Shown: positions 6,036 through 15,857 of the stretch, piece by piece | Position numbering within the stretch: the stretch's first letter is position 1 | How the letters are laid out: every line of letters begins with the position of its first letter | DNA from: Clostridia bacterium | GTDB lineage: Bacteria > Bacillota > Clostridia > Christensenellales > Aristaeellaceae | Length of the DNA: 51,945 bases | Assembly (NCBI GenBank): GCA_017463245.1 | Contig: JAFTPN010000085.1 | Coordinates: 1-51,945, forward strand | Reading direction: 5' to 3' | The notes under the pieces: model-generated | Seen by the model: only the letters and a program-made list of their open reading frames with translations | The model's database searches: none | What the model was told of the DNA's origin: nothing | Translations under genes and position numbers: made by a program

Positions 6036-6332
6036 GAAAACAAAAACGTCCCTGACAGAAATCGAAACTCTGTCAAGGACGAATAATCTACATTATCCGC
6101 GGTGCCACCTTGATTCACGGATTGCTCCGTGCGCTTAGCGGGATACCAGCATATCCCCGGCAAATGACGTCTGCCTCCAACGTCGCAGCATACTCCGGGG
6201 ACGCCCCCGTTTCCCTGCGCCCTCAGCGGTCCATTTGACAGCTTGTTTCTTGCCTGATTCTCACCATCGCAGGCTCTCTTTGAAGTCATGACTGCCGTTA
6301 TCTCCGCTTCAACGGTTTAGGTAATGAAATTT
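6036..6332 (-). ncRNA. T-box riboswitch, tryptophan specifier
   Basis: The trpB leader on the minus strand has the canonical T-box AAGGTGGCACCGCGG (6097-6111). A terminator follows (GTCCTTGACAGAG pairing with CTGTCAGGGAC, then TTTTTGTTTT, 6036-6080). Stem I carries a specifier loop with UGG (6231-6233) before ACCGC, matching the tryptophan codon. The T-box UGGC pairs with a GCCA acceptor end, as expected for tRNA-Trp with discriminator G. Uncharged tRNA-Trp should stabilise the antiterminator and turn trpB on. Confidence 0.93.
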
Positions 6333-6530: not shown

Positions 6531-7463
6531 TCAGTCTGCGAACAGCGGCGTGGAAAGGTATCTGTCGCCGGTATCGGGCAGGAGGACAACAATGGTCTTG
6601 CCGGCGTTCTCCGCCCGTTTGGCCAGTTCGATGGCTGCCCATGCTGCTGCGCCGGAGGAAATACCCACCAGCACGCCCTCCTTGCGACCGATCAACCTGC
6701 CGGTGGCGAAGGCGTCCTCGTTGGCGACGGGGATGATTTCGTCATACACGGCGGTGTTCAGCACATCCGGCACAAAGCCTGCGCCGATGCCCTGAATCTT
6801 GTGTGCGCCCGCCACGCCTGTGGACAGCACAGCAGAGGTGGCGGGCTCCACGGCCACGACTTTTACTGCGGGATTTTGTTCCTTGAGGTATTCCCCCACG
6901 CCCGTCACCGTGCCGCCGGTGCCCACGCCTGCCACGAAGATGTCCACCGTGCCGTCCGTATCCGTCCAGATCTCCGGGCCGGTGGTGCTGCGGTGTGCCT
7001 GGGGATTGGCAGGATTGACGAACTGACCGGGGATGAAGCTGCCGGGAATCTCCGCTGCCAGCTCCTGCGCCTTGGCGATGGCGCCCTTCATGCCCTTGGC
7101 GCCCTCGGTGAGCACCAGCTCTGCGCCGTAGGCCTTCATCAGCTGGCGGCGCTCCACGGACATGGTTTCCGGCATCACGATGATGATACGGTATCCCCGC
7201 GCTGCCGCCACCGCTGCCAGGCCGATGCCCGTGTTACCGGAGGTGGGTTCGATGATGACGGAGCCGGGTACGAGCTTGCCGGAGGCCTCCGCCTCGTCGA
7301 TCATGGCTTTGGCGATGCGATCCTTCACCGAACCGGCGGGATTGAAGTATTCCAGCTTGGCGAGAATGCGAGCCTTGAGGCCGTATTCCTTCTCAATGTG
7401 GGTGAGTTCCAGCAGAGGGGTGCTGCCAATGAGCTGATCGGCAGAAGTGTAGATACGGGACAT
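6531..7463 (-). CDS. cysK: Cysteine synthase A (O-acetylserine sulfhydrylase)
   Basis: A 310-residue PLP enzyme making cysteine from O-acetylserine and sulfide. Visible motifs are the PLP-lysine region [11 protein letters not shown] (about residue 41), the substrate loop [10 protein letters not shown] and the phosphate-binding [12 protein letters not shown]. Family length is normal. The start follows AAAGGAG. It is the last intact gene of a minus-strand set with metY and an ECF S component, and a broken nifS follows. The setting indicates sulfur amino acid interconversion, probably under the same cysteine-responsive control as the transporter upstream. Confidence 0.96.
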
Positions 7464-8137: not shown

Positions 8138-9427
8138 TCAGGCGTTCCCCACAGCGCTGAAGCCCTTCTCCAGATCGGCAATGATATCATCGATGTGCTC
8201 TGTGCCGATGGACAGGCGGATGGTGTTGGGCTTGATGCCCTGATCCTCCAGCTCATCCGCACTCAGCTGGGAGTGGGTGGTGGTGGCGGGATGGATCACC
8301 AGACTCTTCACATCCGCCACATTTGCCAGCAGGGAGAAGATCTCCAGACTGTCGATGAACTGATGCGCCTCGGCCTGACCGCCCTTGATCTCGAAGGTGA
8401 AGATGGAGCCGCCGCCATTGGGGAAGTATTTCTGATACAGCGCATGGTCGGGATGATCCGGCAGAGAGGGATGGTTCACCTTCTCCACCTGCGGATGCCC
8501 GGCGAGGAATTCCACGACCTTTTTGGTGTTCTCCGCATGGCGCTCCAGGCGCAGGGACAGGGTCTCCACACCCTGCAGCAGCAGGAAGGCATTGAACGGA
8601 GAGATGGCAGCGCCGGTATCGCGCAGGAGGATCGCGCGGATGTAGGTGACGAAGGCCGCCGGGCCAGCCGCATCCACGAAGGATACGCCGTGATAGCTGG
8701 GGTTCGCCTCGGCGATGGGGGCATACTTGCCGCTCTTCTTCCAGTCGAATTTGCCGGAATCCACGATCACGCCGCCCAGCGTGGTGCCGTGGCCGCCGAT
8801 GAACTTGGTGGCTGAGTGCACCACGATATCAGCGCCGTGTTCGATGGGGCGGATCAGGTAAGGGGTGCCGAAGGTGTTGTCGATGACCAGCGGCAGGCCG
8901 TGCCGGTGGGCGATTTCGGCAATTGCGTCGATATCCGGAATATCGGAATTGGGATTGCCCAGCGTCTCAAGGTATACTGCCTTGGTATTGGGCTGGATGG
9001 CGGCTTCCACCTCGGCCAGGTTGTGCGCATCCACAAAGGTGGCGCTGATGCCGTAGAGGGGCAGGGTGTTAGACAGCAGGTTGTAGCTGCCGCCGTAGAT
9101 GGTCTTCTGCGCCACGATGTGATCGCCATTCTGGGCCAGCGCCTGAATGGTATAGCTGATCGCCGCTGCACCGGAGGCTACCGCCAGCGCCGCCACGCCG
9201 CCCTCCAGGGCTGCAATGCGCTTCTCCAGCACGTCCTGGGTGGAGTTAGTGAGTCGGCCATAGATATTGCCGGAATCCGCCAGCCCAAAGCGGGCAGCGG
9301 CGTGGGCAGAATTACGGAATACATAGGAAGTGGTCTGATAAATGGGTACTGCACGGGAATCAGTGGCGGGATCGGGCTGTTCCTGACCAACGTGAAGCTG
9401 GAGGGTCTCAAACTTGTAGTTGCTCAT
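8138..9427 (-). CDS. metY: O-acetylhomoserine sulfhydrylase (MetY)
   Basis: A 429-residue PLP enzyme of the Cys/Met metabolism family that turns O-acetylhomoserine and sulfide or methanethiol into homocysteine or methionine. It carries [16 protein letters not shown], the aspartate/PLP region [11 protein letters not shown], the PLP-lysine motif [12 protein letters not shown], and the C-terminal [10 protein letters not shown] and SIGTEH motifs. The roughly 430-residue length favours MetY over the shorter MetB/MetC (about 390). It lies between the ABC binding-protein gene and the ECF S component, with a structured 162-base gap upstream. With cysK it links sulfide to both cysteine and homocysteine. 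Confidence 0.93.
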
Positions 9428-9589: not shown

Positions 9590-10423
9590 TTATTCAGCGG
9601 TGATCACGCCGCCCTCGACAACGAGGCTGTCAGGATTGACCGCGTCGCCGTAGACGTCCTTGAGCGTGGCCTCGAAGTCCGCATGGAAGAACTGCTCGGA
9701 GGCCAGCGCCTCGATCTCGCTGTTGATGTAGGCCAGCACGCTCTCATTGCCCTTCTGCACGGCGGGAGCGATGCTGTCCAGGCTGCCCAGGGTCTCGATG
9801 CCCACGGTGAAGCCGGGATTCTCCAGCGCCCAGGCCAGCACCTCGGTGTTGTCGGTGGAAAGGGCGTCGCCGCGGCCATCCAGCAGGGCGTTGAAGGCCT
9901 CGGTGTAGGTGTCGAACTTCAGCAGCTTGACCTCGGGATGATTGTTGGTGAAGTAGGTCTCAGCCGTGGTACCCTTGGACACGATCAGCGTCTTGTCTGC
10001 CAGCTGGGTCACATCGGTGATCAGCGCGCCGTCGGGGGAAACAACGCCCAGGGCTACCTTCATGTAGGGCAGGGCGAAGTCAACGACCTCGGCGCGCTCC
10101 GGGGTGACGGTAAAGTTGGCGAGGATGATATCCACCTTTGCGCTGGTCAGGAATTCCACACGGTTGGGCGCGTCCACGGAGACCAGTTCCAGCTCCACGC
10201 CCAGGTCAGCCGCCAGGCGGCGGGCGAAGTACACATCGTAACCCTGATACTCACCGTTTTCATCAACGTAGCCAAAGGGCTTCTTGTCGGAGAACACGCC
10301 GATGGTCAGCTTGCCGCTTTCCTTGATCTCATCCAGCGTGCGGGCGGTAGAGTCGGCAAAGGCAGGAACGGTCAACAGAGCCAGAGACAAAACCAGAGCA
10401 AAGATACGAACGATACGCTTCAT
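9590..10423 (-). CDS. Polar amino acid ABC transporter, substrate-binding protein
   Basis: A 277-residue secreted protein. It has an N-terminal signal peptide (MKRIVRIFALVLSLALL, cleavage near AFA-D) without a lipobox Cys. The family-3 solute-binding fold follows: KLTIGVFSDKKPFGYVDENG, GYDVYFARRLA, DIILANFTVTPERAEVVDFA and later TTAETYF. The ATG at 10423 follows AAGGA. It pairs with the two permeases and the ATPase encoded upstream, but is expressed from its own promoter with a long leader containing a Cys-rich peptide and a terminator. This argues for cystine/cysteine or a related sulfur amino acid as substrate, an inference from regulation and from metY-cysK nearby. Confidence 0.9.
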   Translation of the reverse strand: MKRIVRIFALVLSLALLTVPAFADSTARTLDEIKESGKLTIGVFSDKKPFGYVDENGEYQGYDVYFARRLAADLGVELELVSVDAPNRVEFLTSAKVDIILANFTVTPERAEVVDFALPYMKVALGVVSPDGALITDVTQLADKTLIVSKGTTAETYFTNNHPEVKLLKFDTYTEAFNALLDGRGDALSTDNTEVLAWALENPGFTVGIETLGSLDSIAPAVQKGNESVLAYINSEIEALASEQFFHADFEATLKDVYGDAVNPDSLVVEGGVITAE

Positions 10424-10575
10424 AATGAAATCCTTCTTTCTGTTTAATGTGATTTGGTCAGCCATAGGAATATGCAGCACTTCAGCATCACATTCGACAG
10501 ACATCCGTTGCACGGGTAAAGCTCCTCACCCGGTTCAGCATCGAACCACCTCTTTCCTGAAAGAGTCCAGCTGTT
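10424..10575 (-). other. structured 5' region of binding-protein mRNA, downstream of the attenuator
   Basis: After the terminator, successive stems can be drawn on the minus strand: CTCTTTC/GAAAGAG, GGTTC/GAACC, GGGT/ACCC, and AATGTGAT/ATCACATT enclosing the last 50 bases before the ribosome-binding site. No known riboswitch consensus (SAM-I, T-box, cobalamin, lysine) fits. It may be an unrecognised cis-regulator or only folded spacer. Confidence 0.35.
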
Positions 10576-10582
10576 TGGATAC

Positions 10583-10617
10583 AAAAAAGCGGAATGGACA
10601 TCTTCTGTCCACCCCGC
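10583..10617 (-). terminator. Rho-independent terminator in the leader of the binding-protein gene (attenuator)
   Basis: On the minus strand GCGGGGTGGACA pairs with TGTCCATTCCGC around GAAGA, followed by TTTTTT. It lies 28 bases after the stop of the Cys-rich leader peptide and before the binding-protein gene. It can therefore act as an attenuator and also stop transcripts coming from the ATPase gene. Confidence 0.85.
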
Positions 10618-10644
10618 TGCAGCTGTTATCGCCAGCATCTATAT

Positions 10645-10731
10645 TTAGATGCAATGCCGATAAACACCTCGCTGAGACAGACAGCAGGCGCGCCACATAC
10701 ACATACACATCATGGAAGCACGGTTCGTCAT
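10645..10731 (-). CDS. Cys/Met-rich leader peptide
   Basis: A 28-codon ORF with a strong AAAGGAG nine bases before ATG. It starts MTNRASMMCMCMWRACC and has five Cys and five Met in total, with four Cys within nine codons. The end of the ORF overlaps a hairpin (TTATCG and GCATCT pairing with AGATGC and CGATAA around AAATAT), and a terminator follows. This is the layout of ribosome-mediated attenuation: stalling at Cys (or Met) codons would change which hairpin forms. The consensus promoter directly upstream supports expression. The peptide itself probably has no other role. Confidence 0.7.
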   Translation of the reverse strand: MTNRASMMCMCMWRACCLSQRGVYRHCI

Positions 10732-10757
10732 GGCTGTTGTCTCCTTTCGAGTATTCT

Positions 10758-10771
10758 TTGTCTATCGACAT
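10758..10771. promoter_or_regulatory. putative Rrf2-type operator at the binding-protein promoter
   Basis: The minus strand reads ATGTCGATAGACAA here, differing at one position from ATGTCAATAGACAA within the palindrome at 12935-12948. It covers the expected transcription start region. Confidence 0.6.
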
Positions 10772-10776
10772 GGTGT

Positions 10777-10805
10777 ATTATAGTCGATCGTTTCCAGTTT
10801 GTCAA
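10777..10805 (-). promoter_or_regulatory. sigma-A promoter for leader peptide and binding-protein gene
   Basis: -35 TTGACA (10800-10805), 17-base spacer, -10 TATAAT (10777-10782), just downstream of the ATPase stop codon. Confidence 0.88.
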
Positions 10806-10814
10806 TAGGCTTTT

Positions 10815-11561
10815 TTAACTTTTTTTGTAATCAAAGGTGTCAAGGAACTGCTGGGCGCGCTCCGTTTCCGGCTGATGGAAGAATTTCTCCGGCGGGGCCT
10901 GCTCCACGATGTCGCCGCCCTCCAGGAACACGACCCGGTCCGCCACCGCCTCGGCAAAGCGCATTTCATGGGTAACGATGGCCATGGTCACGCCGTCCCG
11001 GGCGAGATCCAGGACAACATTCAGCACTTCCCGCACCATTTCCGGGTCAAGGGCGGCGGTGATCTCATCCAGCAGCAGCATTTCCGGGTGCATCAGCATG
11101 GCACGGACGAGGGCGACACGCTGCTTTTGACCGCCGGAGAGCTGACCGGGCATGGCGTGCGCTTTGTCCTGCAGACCGACCCGGACGAGGAAACGCTCCG
11201 CCTCCTCTGCCACCTCACGGCGGCTCTTGCCCAGCGCCTTGATGGGGCCAAGGAGCAAGTTGGCCATCACGTCCATATGGGGGAACAGATCGTAGCTCTG
11301 GAACACCATGCCGATCCTTTGCCGCACCAGATGGAGCGCCTTCTTCTGCCCGCTGATCCTTTCGCCCCGCAGCAGGATCTCGCCGCTGTCGACCGCCTCA
11401 AGGCCATTGATGCAGCGCAGCAGCGTGGATTTTCCGCATCCGCTGGGGCCGATAATCACCACGACCTCACCCTGCGCAATGCTGAGAGATACGTCCTTCA
11501 GGACGGAGACGCCCTCGAAGGACTTGTGCAGATTCCGGATCTCCAGCAAGGTTTCAGCCAT
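10815..11561 (-). CDS. Polar amino acid ABC transporter, ATP-binding protein
   Basis: A 248-residue ATPase of the GlnQ/HisP type that powers uptake with the two permeases encoded upstream. Walker A GPSGCGKST (about residue 38), Q-loop FQSYDLFPH, signature LSGGQKQR and H-loop VTHE are present. Walker B reads LLLDEITAALDPE, with Ile where most relatives have Pro after the catalytic Glu. ATG 11561 is chosen because GGAG lies nine bases upstream. An earlier in-frame ATG (11576) overlaps the permease stop and is less well placed. Translation is coupled to the permease. Confidence 0.93.
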   Translation of the reverse strand: MAETLLEIRNLHKSFEGVSVLKDVSLSIAQGEVVVIIGPSGCGKSTLLRCINGLEAVDSGEILLRGERISGQKKALHLVRQRIGMVFQSYDLFPHMDVMANLLLGPIKALGKSRREVAEEAERFLVRVGLQDKAHAMPGQLSGGQKQRVALVRAMLMHPEMLLLDEITAALDPEMVREVLNVVLDLARDGVTMAIVTHEMRFAEAVADRVVFLEGGDIVEQAPPEKFFHQPETERAQQFLDTFDYKKS

Positions 11562-11566
11562 ATCGA

Positions 11567-12241
11567 TCAGCTCCATTTCTTTTCCAGCCAGCCCGCCAAG
11601 AGCGAAATGGGCCAGCAGACGATAAAGTACAGGAAGAAAACCACGGCATACAGCCATACGGCAGCCTGCGGCGCATCATAGCGGTTGGCGTCGATGATCT
11701 GCTGCGTCACCTTCAGCACCTCCACCACGCCGATGAGCATCACCAGCGAGGTGGTTTTGATCATCCGCGTCGCCAGATTGATGGACTGGGGGATCAGACG
11801 GCGCAGCGTCTGGGGCAGCAGCACATAGCGAAAGCTCTGCACCTTCGTCAGGCCAAGGGCGGCTGCGCTTTCCCGCTGATGGCGGGGGATGGAGGTCAGT
11901 GCGCCGCGAACCAGGTCGCCCATTTCGCCCGTTCCCCAGAAGGTGAAGACGATCACAGCGGCGGTCTCGGCGCTCATCTGAATATCGAAGGTCTTCGCCA
12001 TGCCGAAGTACACCAGAAACAGCAGCACCAGCTGAGGCACGATGCGGATGGTTTCCAGCCACAGCCTGCATATGGCGCGGATGATAGACGAGCGCAGCGT
12101 CATGATCAGCCCCAGCACCAGCCCCAGCAGCACGGACAGCACGATCGACATCGCGGACAGCTCCAGCGTTACGCCGAGGCCGCCCAGCAGACGTTCCAGA
12201 TTACGTCCCTTCAGCAGGACGGACAGAGCCTGATCCGGCAT
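11567..12241 (-). CDS. Polar amino acid ABC transporter permease (second)
   Basis: A 224-residue membrane protein of the HisM/GlnP family. It has about five helices, an N-terminal GLGVTLELSAMSIVLSVLLG segment and a conserved cytoplasmic coupling loop ESAAALGLTKVQSFRYVLLPQ that contacts the ATPase. The ATG follows AAAGGAGG by seven bases. Its start overlaps the end of the first permease gene by 41 bases, so the pair is translationally coupled and probably forms a heterodimer. Confidence 0.92.
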   Translation of the reverse strand: MPDQALSVLLKGRNLERLLGGLGVTLELSAMSIVLSVLLGLVLGLIMTLRSSIIRAICRLWLETIRIVPQLVLLFLVYFGMAKTFDIQMSAETAAVIVFTFWGTGEMGDLVRGALTSIPRHQRESAAALGLTKVQSFRYVLLPQTLRRLIPQSINLATRMIKTTSLVMLIGVVEVLKVTQQIIDANRYDAPQAAVWLYAVVFFLYFIVCWPISLLAGWLEKKWS

Positions 12242-13020: not shown

Positions 13021-13452
13021 ATGCTGATTTCCACCAAGGGACGCTATGTAACCCGAATGCTGCTGGACATCGCGCAGAACCAGGGGGATGGTTATGTCTC
13101 CATGAAGAGTATCGCCGAGCGGCAGGGGATGTCCAAGAAGTATCTGGAGCAGTTTACTGCCACGCTGGCCAAGGCCGGCCTGCTCGAGATCCGCCGGGGC
13201 AATCAGGGCGGCTACCGTTTGCTGGTCGATCCGGCAGCTATCACGCTGGCCGACATCCTCTACCTGACAGAGGACTCAATGCACGCGGTCGCCTGTCTTG
13301 AGCATACGCCGAACCGCTGCGAAAAGTGCGGATCTTGCATCACGCTGCCCGCCTGGGAAGGGTTGGACAAGGTGGTGCACGAGTACCTCACCTCCGTTAC
13401 GCTGCAAAGTCTGCTTGCGCAGGCGAAGGAGAAGCAAGAGGGCGCTGTGTGA
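13021..13452 (+). CDS. Rrf2-family transcriptional regulator (CymR/IscR-like)
   Basis: A 143-residue winged-helix regulator. It begins MLISTKGRYVTRMLLDIA as is typical for Rrf2 proteins, has the recognition helix region MSKKYLEQFTATLAKAGLLEIRRG and the wing GGYRL. A Cys cluster (CLEHTPNRCEKCGSC, about residue 98) could hold an iron-sulfur cluster or sense cysteine status. ATG 13021 is preferred for its spacing from GCAGGAG; two in-frame ATGs (13012, 13015) lie just before. Divergence from the sulfur amino acid transporter and the shared operator suggest it represses transporter, binding protein and perhaps itself. Confidence 0.9.
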   Translation: MLISTKGRYVTRMLLDIAQNQGDGYVSMKSIAERQGMSKKYLEQFTATLAKAGLLEIRRGNQGGYRLLVDPAAITLADILYLTEDSMHAVACLEHTPNRCEKCGSCITLPAWEGLDKVVHEYLTSVTLQSLLAQAKEKQEGAV

Positions 13453-15687: not shown

Positions 15688-15719
15688 GTGTATTTCCTCC
15701 TTAACGGTCATGAAGGACG

Positions 15720-15772
15720 AAAAAAACGAGACTCATCCGTCCTTCGGTACAGAAAGAAACAGATAAGTCTCG
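15720..15772 (-). terminator. expression-platform terminator of the manganese riboswitch
   Basis: CGAGACT pairs with AGTCTCG, followed on the minus strand by TTTTTTT. The 5' strand of the stem is shared with the aptamer, so ligand binding should block termination. Confidence 0.85.
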
Positions 15773-15857
15773 TCGCAATGTACAAAGCCAGGAACGGTTG
15801 TTCCAGAATGTTGACTTCGTCCCGCGGTGAAGCGCCGACTACTCCCTTACGGGGAGT
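15727..15857 (-). ncRNA. yybP-ykoY (manganese) riboswitch
   Basis: On the minus strand the mntP leader contains the conserved elements in order: GGGAGTAG, a GC-rich stem, GTCAACATTC, and GCGACGAGACTTATC, then the terminator. This is the yybP-ykoY consensus, known to bind Mn2+ and to control MntP-type exporters. Confidence 0.92.

Follow-up and report, generated by a model that had tools for sequence, protein, structure and literature searches.

A Cys/Met-rich leader peptide before a solute-binding protein gene in Clostridia: a probable ribosome-mediated attenuator at sulfur amino acid genes

How are sulfur amino acid genes controlled when a short reading frame rich in Cys and Met, followed by a terminator, stands in front of them? 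The question is raised by a locus in contig JAFTPN010000085.1 of a Clostridia bacterium of the family Aristaeellaceae (hereafter the window, i.e., the whole stretch of 51,945 nucleotides that was analyzed). The trp and his attenuators of proteobacteria combine an intrinsic terminator and mutually exclusive pairings with a mini-ORF that carries many codons for the regulated amino acid. T-boxes and SAM-I riboswitches bring about premature termination at amino acid and sulfur genes of Firmicutes by direct RNA-tRNA or RNA-ligand binding, with no translated ORF. As far as the consulted parts of two reports go, leader-peptide attenuation in Firmicutes concerns few lineages and His only, T-boxes and riboswitches being assumed otherwise (PMC2965389, PMC9413887). 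On the basis of sequence elements, conservation, predicted alternative pairings, codon bias and gene content, we propose, with a probability of roughly 0.86, that the locus would be a ribosome-mediated attenuator of transcription, with cysteine supply as its signal.

The leader lies on the minus strand, on which the earlier note was silent, and the series that this note had described (promoter, ribosome-binding site, 28-codon ORF, hairpin and terminator, then a binding-protein gene) was recovered in full. A sigma-70-type promoter (10777..10805, TTGACA-17-TATAAT, 12/12 consensus matches) opens the series, and many relative leaders are also preceded by TATAAT-like boxes. Near the likely transcript start, a small hairpin read by eye (10760..10769, GTC-GATA-GAC) may perhaps stabilize the transcript; CCCAT...GTGGG-like versions of changing sequence were seen by eye in many relatives. 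The Shine-Dalgarno (SD) sequence AAAGGAG (10747-10741) precedes the ATG at 10731 of the leader ORF, uORF1, whose start codon lies 45 nt from the -10 box and which encodes MTNRASMMCMCMWRACCLSQRGVYRHCI (10645..10731, stop included; 28 codons, five Cys and five Met). In the MFE fold, the SD region of this ORF (segment 1, 10732..10752) pairs with the stretch after the first Cys codons (segment 2, 10667..10693), and a duplex of -21.7 kcal/mol is predicted for the two; segment 2 could alternatively pair with the 5′ arm of the terminator, five bases being shared. The hairpin TTATCG..CGATAA with inner arms GCATCT/AGATGC (10626..10663), listed in the earlier note, is indeed present, and its role is refined here to that of the tip of the predicted antiterminator; its inner arms are kept in the leader of the sister species (L237). 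An intrinsic terminator stem-loop follows (segments 3 and 4, 10588..10618, 13 pairs), with its T tract at 10583..10587 in the sequence and, after it, a second SD-preceded mini-ORF, uORF2 (10488..10541, MLNRVRSFTRATDVCRM), which ends in TGT CGA ATG TGA. Neither the uORF1 nor the uORF2 peptide matched an NCBIfam or Pfam family.

Downstream, on the same strand, the regulated gene in the proposed model would be that of a family-3 solute-binding protein (SBP; 9590..10423, PF00497). The specific NCBIfam models that come closest to it describe Lys/Arg/Orn and cystine binding proteins, none reaching the cut-off. The SBP gene is followed by metY (8138..9427, O-acetylhomoserine/O-acetylserine sulfhydrylase, TIGR01326, above cut-off), which probably shares its transcript, by an ECF-type S component and by cysK (6531..7463, cysteine synthase A, TIGR01139, above cut-off). 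An SD-preceded Cys-rich ORF, a terminator, a predicted overlapping antiterminator and downstream genes for the same amino acid (the SBP substrate being putative) are thus found together. The gene of an amino-acid ABC transporter ATPase (10815..11567, minus strand) would not be under the attenuator, because it is located upstream of the leader promoter.

Since the leader comes just after this ATPase gene and intergenic terminators are ordinary, the terminator might merely end the transcript of the upstream ABC transporter, the mini-ORF being a chance frame. This reading is hardly credible in view of the consensus promoter between the ATPase gene and the terminator, of the conservation of the leader in relatives and of a shuffling control: among 5214 SD-preceded ORFs of 20-36 codons, drawn from 60 dinucleotide shuffles of one window strand, none had at least five Cys plus at least four further Met, and 13 had at least five Cys. 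In the real window, two of 119 such ORFs on both strands have at least five Cys, namely uORF1 and one other. Furthermore, the folding of the leader RNA beats 200 of 200 shuffles (z -4.1).

Conservation was followed through the SBP gene, searched in named genomes (best 80 loci) and in 300 same-family genomes, 72 of which have the SBP at E up to 1e-40; 71 of these 72 were examined, G141 being left out. A Cys-rich leader ORF stands at 48 of the 54 same-family loci whose SBP is at least 68% identical (window included), and at none of the 17 loci below 68%. The latter (L163-L179) make up a second SBP group, 61-67% identical, and at the two of them that were read, L163 and L170, the SBP gene comes directly after its ATPase gene. 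By eye, no attenuator of such kind was seen at the six leaderless loci among the 54 (L131, L136, L138, L140, L156 and L160). As to the named genomes, 28 of the best 80 SBP loci carry the leader. Typical peptides of relatives are MKRSAMNQIMCCMCRQRRPLPCRSI and MKQQMMMCCCMCGSLRPSRRELCLR; within the set of 48 non-redundant leaders (window included), 46 have at least three Cys codons and two (L122, L162) have two, a retention that is partly built in because most of the 48 were found by a Cys-content filter. Relatives keep the Cys codons and the three alternative pairings together, the opposite of the outcome (hairpins without Cys codons) that the earlier note had named as refuting attenuation.

The pairings themselves were analyzed in the 48 leaders. 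A terminator-like hairpin starts 11-33 nt past the uORF1 stop in all of them, by a definition (no fewer than four T among the eight bases that come next) that was applied without a shuffled control; in several relatives the T tract is poor (e.g., TTATATAT), and the stem of L049 is over-extended. Segment 2 is predicted to pair either with the leader SD region (1:2) or with the terminator 5′ arm (2:3), with shared bases in 48/48. When the fold is masked as if a ribosome stood at the first Cys codon, so that covered RNA cannot pair, at least five bases of the terminator 5′ arm find upstream partners in every leader (mean z -1.84; 36/48 below -1 and 2/48 above 0). In an alignment of 24 leaders, pairs are formed in 91.1% of cells for 1:2, 89.8% for 2:3 and 88.8% for the terminator pairing 3:4, slid versions giving 30-60%. 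Covariation, which the earlier note had suggested as a check on hairpin and terminator, is detected for 1:2 and for the terminator (3:4), each exceeding 500 of 500 shuffles, a control that can be inflated by relatedness, and not for the 9-pair core of 2:3, where 66/500 shuffles reach the score and 76/500 the pair count. RNAalifold gives, in the antiterminator region, 11 pairs changed on both sides in alignment A3 and six in A4. In swap tests, a leader's own partner outscores the average swapped one in 46 or 44 of 48 leaders for 1:2 and, more weakly, in 27 or 36 of 48 for 2:3. As far as such models go, the attenuator is real by all computational tests except the covariation of the 2:3 core, the swap test of 2:3 also being weak.

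Codon usage adds another layer of evidence. Cys is written TGT 148 times and TGC 61 times in the 48 leaders (n = 209), and 472 and 1148 times, respectively, in 305 long ORFs nearby (n = 1620; Fisher 5.5e-31, ignoring kinship); ten genes of the window have one TGT and 26 TGC. Such a bias would be hard to explain unless ribosomes read the leader codons. Together with gene content, it makes Cys the likelier signal, rather than Met, at the window leader. That the same attenuator senses Met, or Met and Cys jointly, would be in line with the five Met of the window leader, with metY lying in the operon and, in the sister species, directly after the leader, and with the Met-rich leaders that do occur at metQ, those of permuted metQ genes being Met-dominated (e.g., MMKQQAIMMSMMMPMRMCRMSMRCC). 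Nevertheless, Cys codons look by eye better kept than Met codons in aligned SBP leaders, a preference for a rare codon can show for Cys only and cysK lies downstream, so that we regard a Met or joint signal as unlikely.

The reading of the locus as a ribosome-mediated attenuator, already put forward in the earlier note, is thus supported by the conservation of the leader, the alternative pairings, the TGT bias and the downstream metY and cysK. As to its working, we infer the translation of uORF1, stalling at its Cys codons, the direction of the response and the sensing of charged tRNA. RNA polymerase would start at the 10805-10777 promoter and transcribe uORF1 with a ribosome trailing. With ample charged tRNA-Cys, the ribosome would clear the Cys codons and be released, 1:2 would re-form, 3:4 would pair and transcription would terminate near 10583. 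With charged tRNA-Cys in short supply, the ribosome would stall where the TGT/TGC codons cluster, between segments 1 and 2; the terminator 5′ arm would be taken by segment 2 (2:3), and polymerase would read through into SBP, metY and cysK. The 1:2 pairing would also close the leader's own SD, presumably reducing re-initiation. In leaders of the RPSRRELCLR type, segment 2 lies about 30 nt 5′ of the stop codon and would be uncovered by a ribosome at the stop; therefore, the model needs the re-pairing of 1:2.

The strong alternative folds could equally be thought to belong to a riboswitch-like attenuator binding a protein or a metabolite, with an incidental ORF, and a divergent regulator gene of the Rrf2 family (IscR/CymR-like; 13021..13452, plus strand, start approximate; TIGR00738 above cut-off, CymR and IscR models below) does lie nearby. 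We consider this very improbable: the leader strand between 10583 and 10805 has no Rfam match even at E up to 1, the RNA sequence changes without loss of the Cys codons, the SD or the ORF, and a TGT preference would be meaningless in untranslated RNA. At gathering scores, an Rfam scan of the window gave no match; at the leader site, a weak match to P31 falls on the opposite strand (E 0.08, under the gathering score). A T-box and a SAM-I riboswitch (RF00162) at the leader were rejected, the sole T-box match of the window being at 6072-6321 and SAM-I matching nowhere in the window up to an E of 1.

This T-box agrees with the earlier statement that one precedes trpB in the same window: the match (6321-6072, minus strand) reaches 87.3 bits and E 1e-17, the Rfam gathering score being 93, and stands 5′ of ORF 5903-4680, which reads as a probable trpB. 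T-box matches at E up to 0.001 occur in 40/40 relatives (36 over the cut-off) and number 16 in the genome of the window, and SAM-I riboswitches are found in 28/40 relatives; the family has not replaced T-boxes or SAM-I riboswitches wholesale. Eleven leaderless SBP loci, among the 52 such in the best 80 named-genome loci, showed no riboswitch 5′ of the SBP at gathering score, a weak negative because the window's own T-box is also under its gathering score. At L069, one SAM-I riboswitch is positioned after the SBP. Elsewhere in the window, a sub-threshold match to the manganese riboswitch (15703-15846, minus strand, 33 bits, E 2e-5) lies upstream of ORF 15711-15124, which presumably resembles an MntP-type exporter.

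Leaders of this kind are not restricted to SBP genes. A covariance model, R1, was made from 24 SBP leaders; searched over the 300 genomes of the family, it matched 64 sites, spread over 59 genomes (E up to 0.01). By place, 32 of these sites (including 28 of the best 30) are SBP leaders. The other 32, read by eye, comprise 17 Met/Cys-rich SD-preceded leaders, one aromatic leader and 14 sites with no leader. R1 leaders stand before metY in L237, the sister species of the window, where the same leader lies directly before this gene with no SBP gene between; before metQ/NlpA (L244, L246-L250, L391); before metN-type ATPases (L240, L384, L386, L387), an assignment for which L240 alone was HMM-tested (TIGR02314, below cut-off), the peptides of L240, L386 and L387 having two Cys only; and before SDF-family symporters (L245, L253 and L238, the last with one ORF between), which may be TcyP-like. 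The symporters of L253 and L238 match PF00375, the models matched being general ones. L239 and L393 have a leader without a clear downstream gene. Order-wide, R1 matches 4 of 297 genomes: two belong to the family, and the sites in the other two (L382, L383) hold no Met/Cys-rich SD-preceded ORF, so that this model gives nothing convincing outside the family; divergent leaders would escape it. A symporter search in 60 relatives found none, at a cut-off too strict to be informative.

In the genome of the window, leaders are also present at metQ (L296/L297) and at an M20 hydrolase gene (L298). The latter (G000:C13:6341-6500, minus strand) reads MAKQMQAMMMCKGMCMGMCSVFPCACCRM and is accompanied by a terminator-like hairpin and by a uORF2 containing ARDRC. 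Many metQ genes of the family are circularly permuted: the MetQ/NlpA protein, a single ORF of about 290 residues, starts with profile positions 94-234 and continues with 1-94, as in G000:C29 (L297, about 262-1130) and in the genus of the window (e.g., L244, L249). A Met/Cys-rich SD-preceded leader stands at 28 of 31 same-family permuted metQ genes, L308, L312 and L314 having none, and at 0 of 12 normal-order metQ genes (12 of 13 genes covered, G042:C90 left out); two normal-order genes found via R1, L246 and L250, do have it. Outside the family, 1 of 7 metQ loci passes the Met/Cys filter (L275). Each of 35 non-SBP Met/Cys leaders has a terminator-like hairpin, in a set pre-filtered for a T run. 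Their masked folds are weak (mean z -0.66, 12/35 below -1), at least two terminators look misplaced (L245, L307), and because of this weak antiterminator signal the case for attenuation at non-SBP genes consists of ORF and terminator.

The aromatic leader (L252:2309-3511, plus strand) is a Phe/Tyr-rich peptide of 29 codons, MKHFPETVYGYFSFALYFRGRACCGSIAD, with four Phe and three Tyr, followed by a GC-rich hairpin and T's; it lies directly 5′ of a gene for 3-deoxy-7-phosphoheptulonate synthase (NF006421, narrowly missing the cut-off). The family may thus use leader-peptide attenuation for aromatic amino acids as well.

At many loci, the sequence between terminator and gene holds the second mini-ORF, again preceded by an SD, which the earlier note overlooked. 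At SBP genes, uORF2 has the motif A/V-[K/R/T]-D-[R/A/V]-C (AxDRC; 26 non-redundant loci, window included), and at metQ the motif N-R-E-S-R-R-M (13 loci), whose pattern occurs in 16 of 300 genomes, a reversed control giving 0. The loci were picked by peptide motif, the codons being free to vary. The Arg before Cys or Met is CGA in 36/36 cases (23/23 before Cys, 13/13 before Met), the background in neighboring ORFs being 579 CGA among 8648 Arg codons. Asp is encoded by either GAC or GAT, and synonymous changes occur at the N, R, E and R codons of the metQ motif, so that the peptide itself seems to be under selection; it shows the conserved sequence characteristic of nascent-chain arrest peptides, arrest as such being putative. 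In 3 of the 26 (window, L130 and L131), a residue other than Arg precedes Cys; in the window, CGA lies between TGT and the final ATG. Between window and L237, uORF2 is less well kept; in the sister species it reads MLTRMRSLVRAVGNCRM, and therefore Asp is not essential. A strict pattern, run on 40 of the 72 SBP-bearing genomes, gave 27 matches, against 4 in the control. The idea that uORF2 precedes many unrelated genes was rejected on reading, 12 pattern matches being at SBP and the other 15 judged chance frames; other searches added the sites at the M20 gene, L236 and L239.

Because uORF2 lies downstream, the attenuator is perhaps not the only control. It could even be argued that uORF2 is the main sensor, through a peptide-aided ribosome pause at CGA-Cys or CGA-Met, with the uORF1 attenuator as a second layer. 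In this sense, uORF2 occurs without uORF1 at L131, L136 and L140 (SBP) and at L368 (metQ), a promoter of its own standing before it at L136, L140 and L368, and CGA stays invariant at sites whose other motif codons vary synonymously. CGA is indeed a pausing codon that slows decoding in the Salmonella his leader, according to the portion of that report considered here (PMC4046918). Against it, loci L031-L042 keep uORF1 with no AxDRC-type uORF2 listed (L033 and L034 having other mini-ORFs), Arg is missing before Cys in the window, L130 and L131, and a hairpin hiding the SD of the gene was not consistent in the 26 loci, the gene starts of L147 and L152 being misplaced. We find such a primary role of uORF2 rather doubtful. 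A combined view, tentative and short of even odds, is that a family of Clostridia could run its sulfur amino acid regulon by two-stage sensors: a Met/Cys-rich attenuator, and then a new class of mini-ORF (AxDRC at Cys genes, NRESRRM at metQ) whose invariant slow CGA before one Cys or Met codon would gauge aminoacyl-tRNA or a nascent-peptide ligand.

Coming back to the attenuator at uORF1, it resembles the trp and his attenuators in its amino-acid-rich mini-ORF, its mutually exclusive pairings (here predicted) and its intrinsic terminator. It differs from them in its Cys/Met codons, its Clostridia host and the second conserved mini-ORF often found after the terminator; furthermore, the leader's own SD serves as segment 1, which places the Cys codons in the 1:2 loop. 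Mycobacteria reportedly have leaderless polycysteine ORFs that act as a cysteine-responsive attenuator, as Canestrari and colleagues are said to have described in 2020. Compared by title, that system shares a Cys-rich short ORF 5′ of an operon, whereas uORF1 of the window has a 5′ leader and an SD. With T-boxes and SAM-I riboswitches, the locus shares the control of amino acid or sulfur genes by premature termination, but a translated ORF is proposed and neither model matches the site. The His leaders of some Firmicutes, reported at his operons or hisS, are similar in that ribosome-mediated attenuation occurs where T-boxes are usual; judging from the sections consulted, they differ from the present leaders, whose Cys/Met codons precede genes of sulfur uptake and assimilation and whose family retains T-boxes and a SAM riboswitch as well (PMC2965389, PMC9413887). 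No account of Cys/Met leader attenuators in Clostridia was found in the literature searched, whose coverage mostly excluded subscription journals. Altogether, we would describe an attenuator of known type, most likely Cys-sensing, in a setting for which no report was located, with an SD-based segment 1 and a conserved second ORF.

For the biology of the family, this means that one group of Clostridia appears to use leader attenuation at several sulfur genes alongside T-boxes. As leaders and T-boxes stand in one genome, the exchange between tRNA-sensing RNAs and ribosome-sensing leaders becomes directly comparable. In turn, uORF2 with its CGA-Cys or CGA-Met pair constitutes a candidate sensor type, and the leaders suggest substrates for the transporters that they precede: cystine-like for the SBP and the symporters, and methionine for the permuted MetQ.
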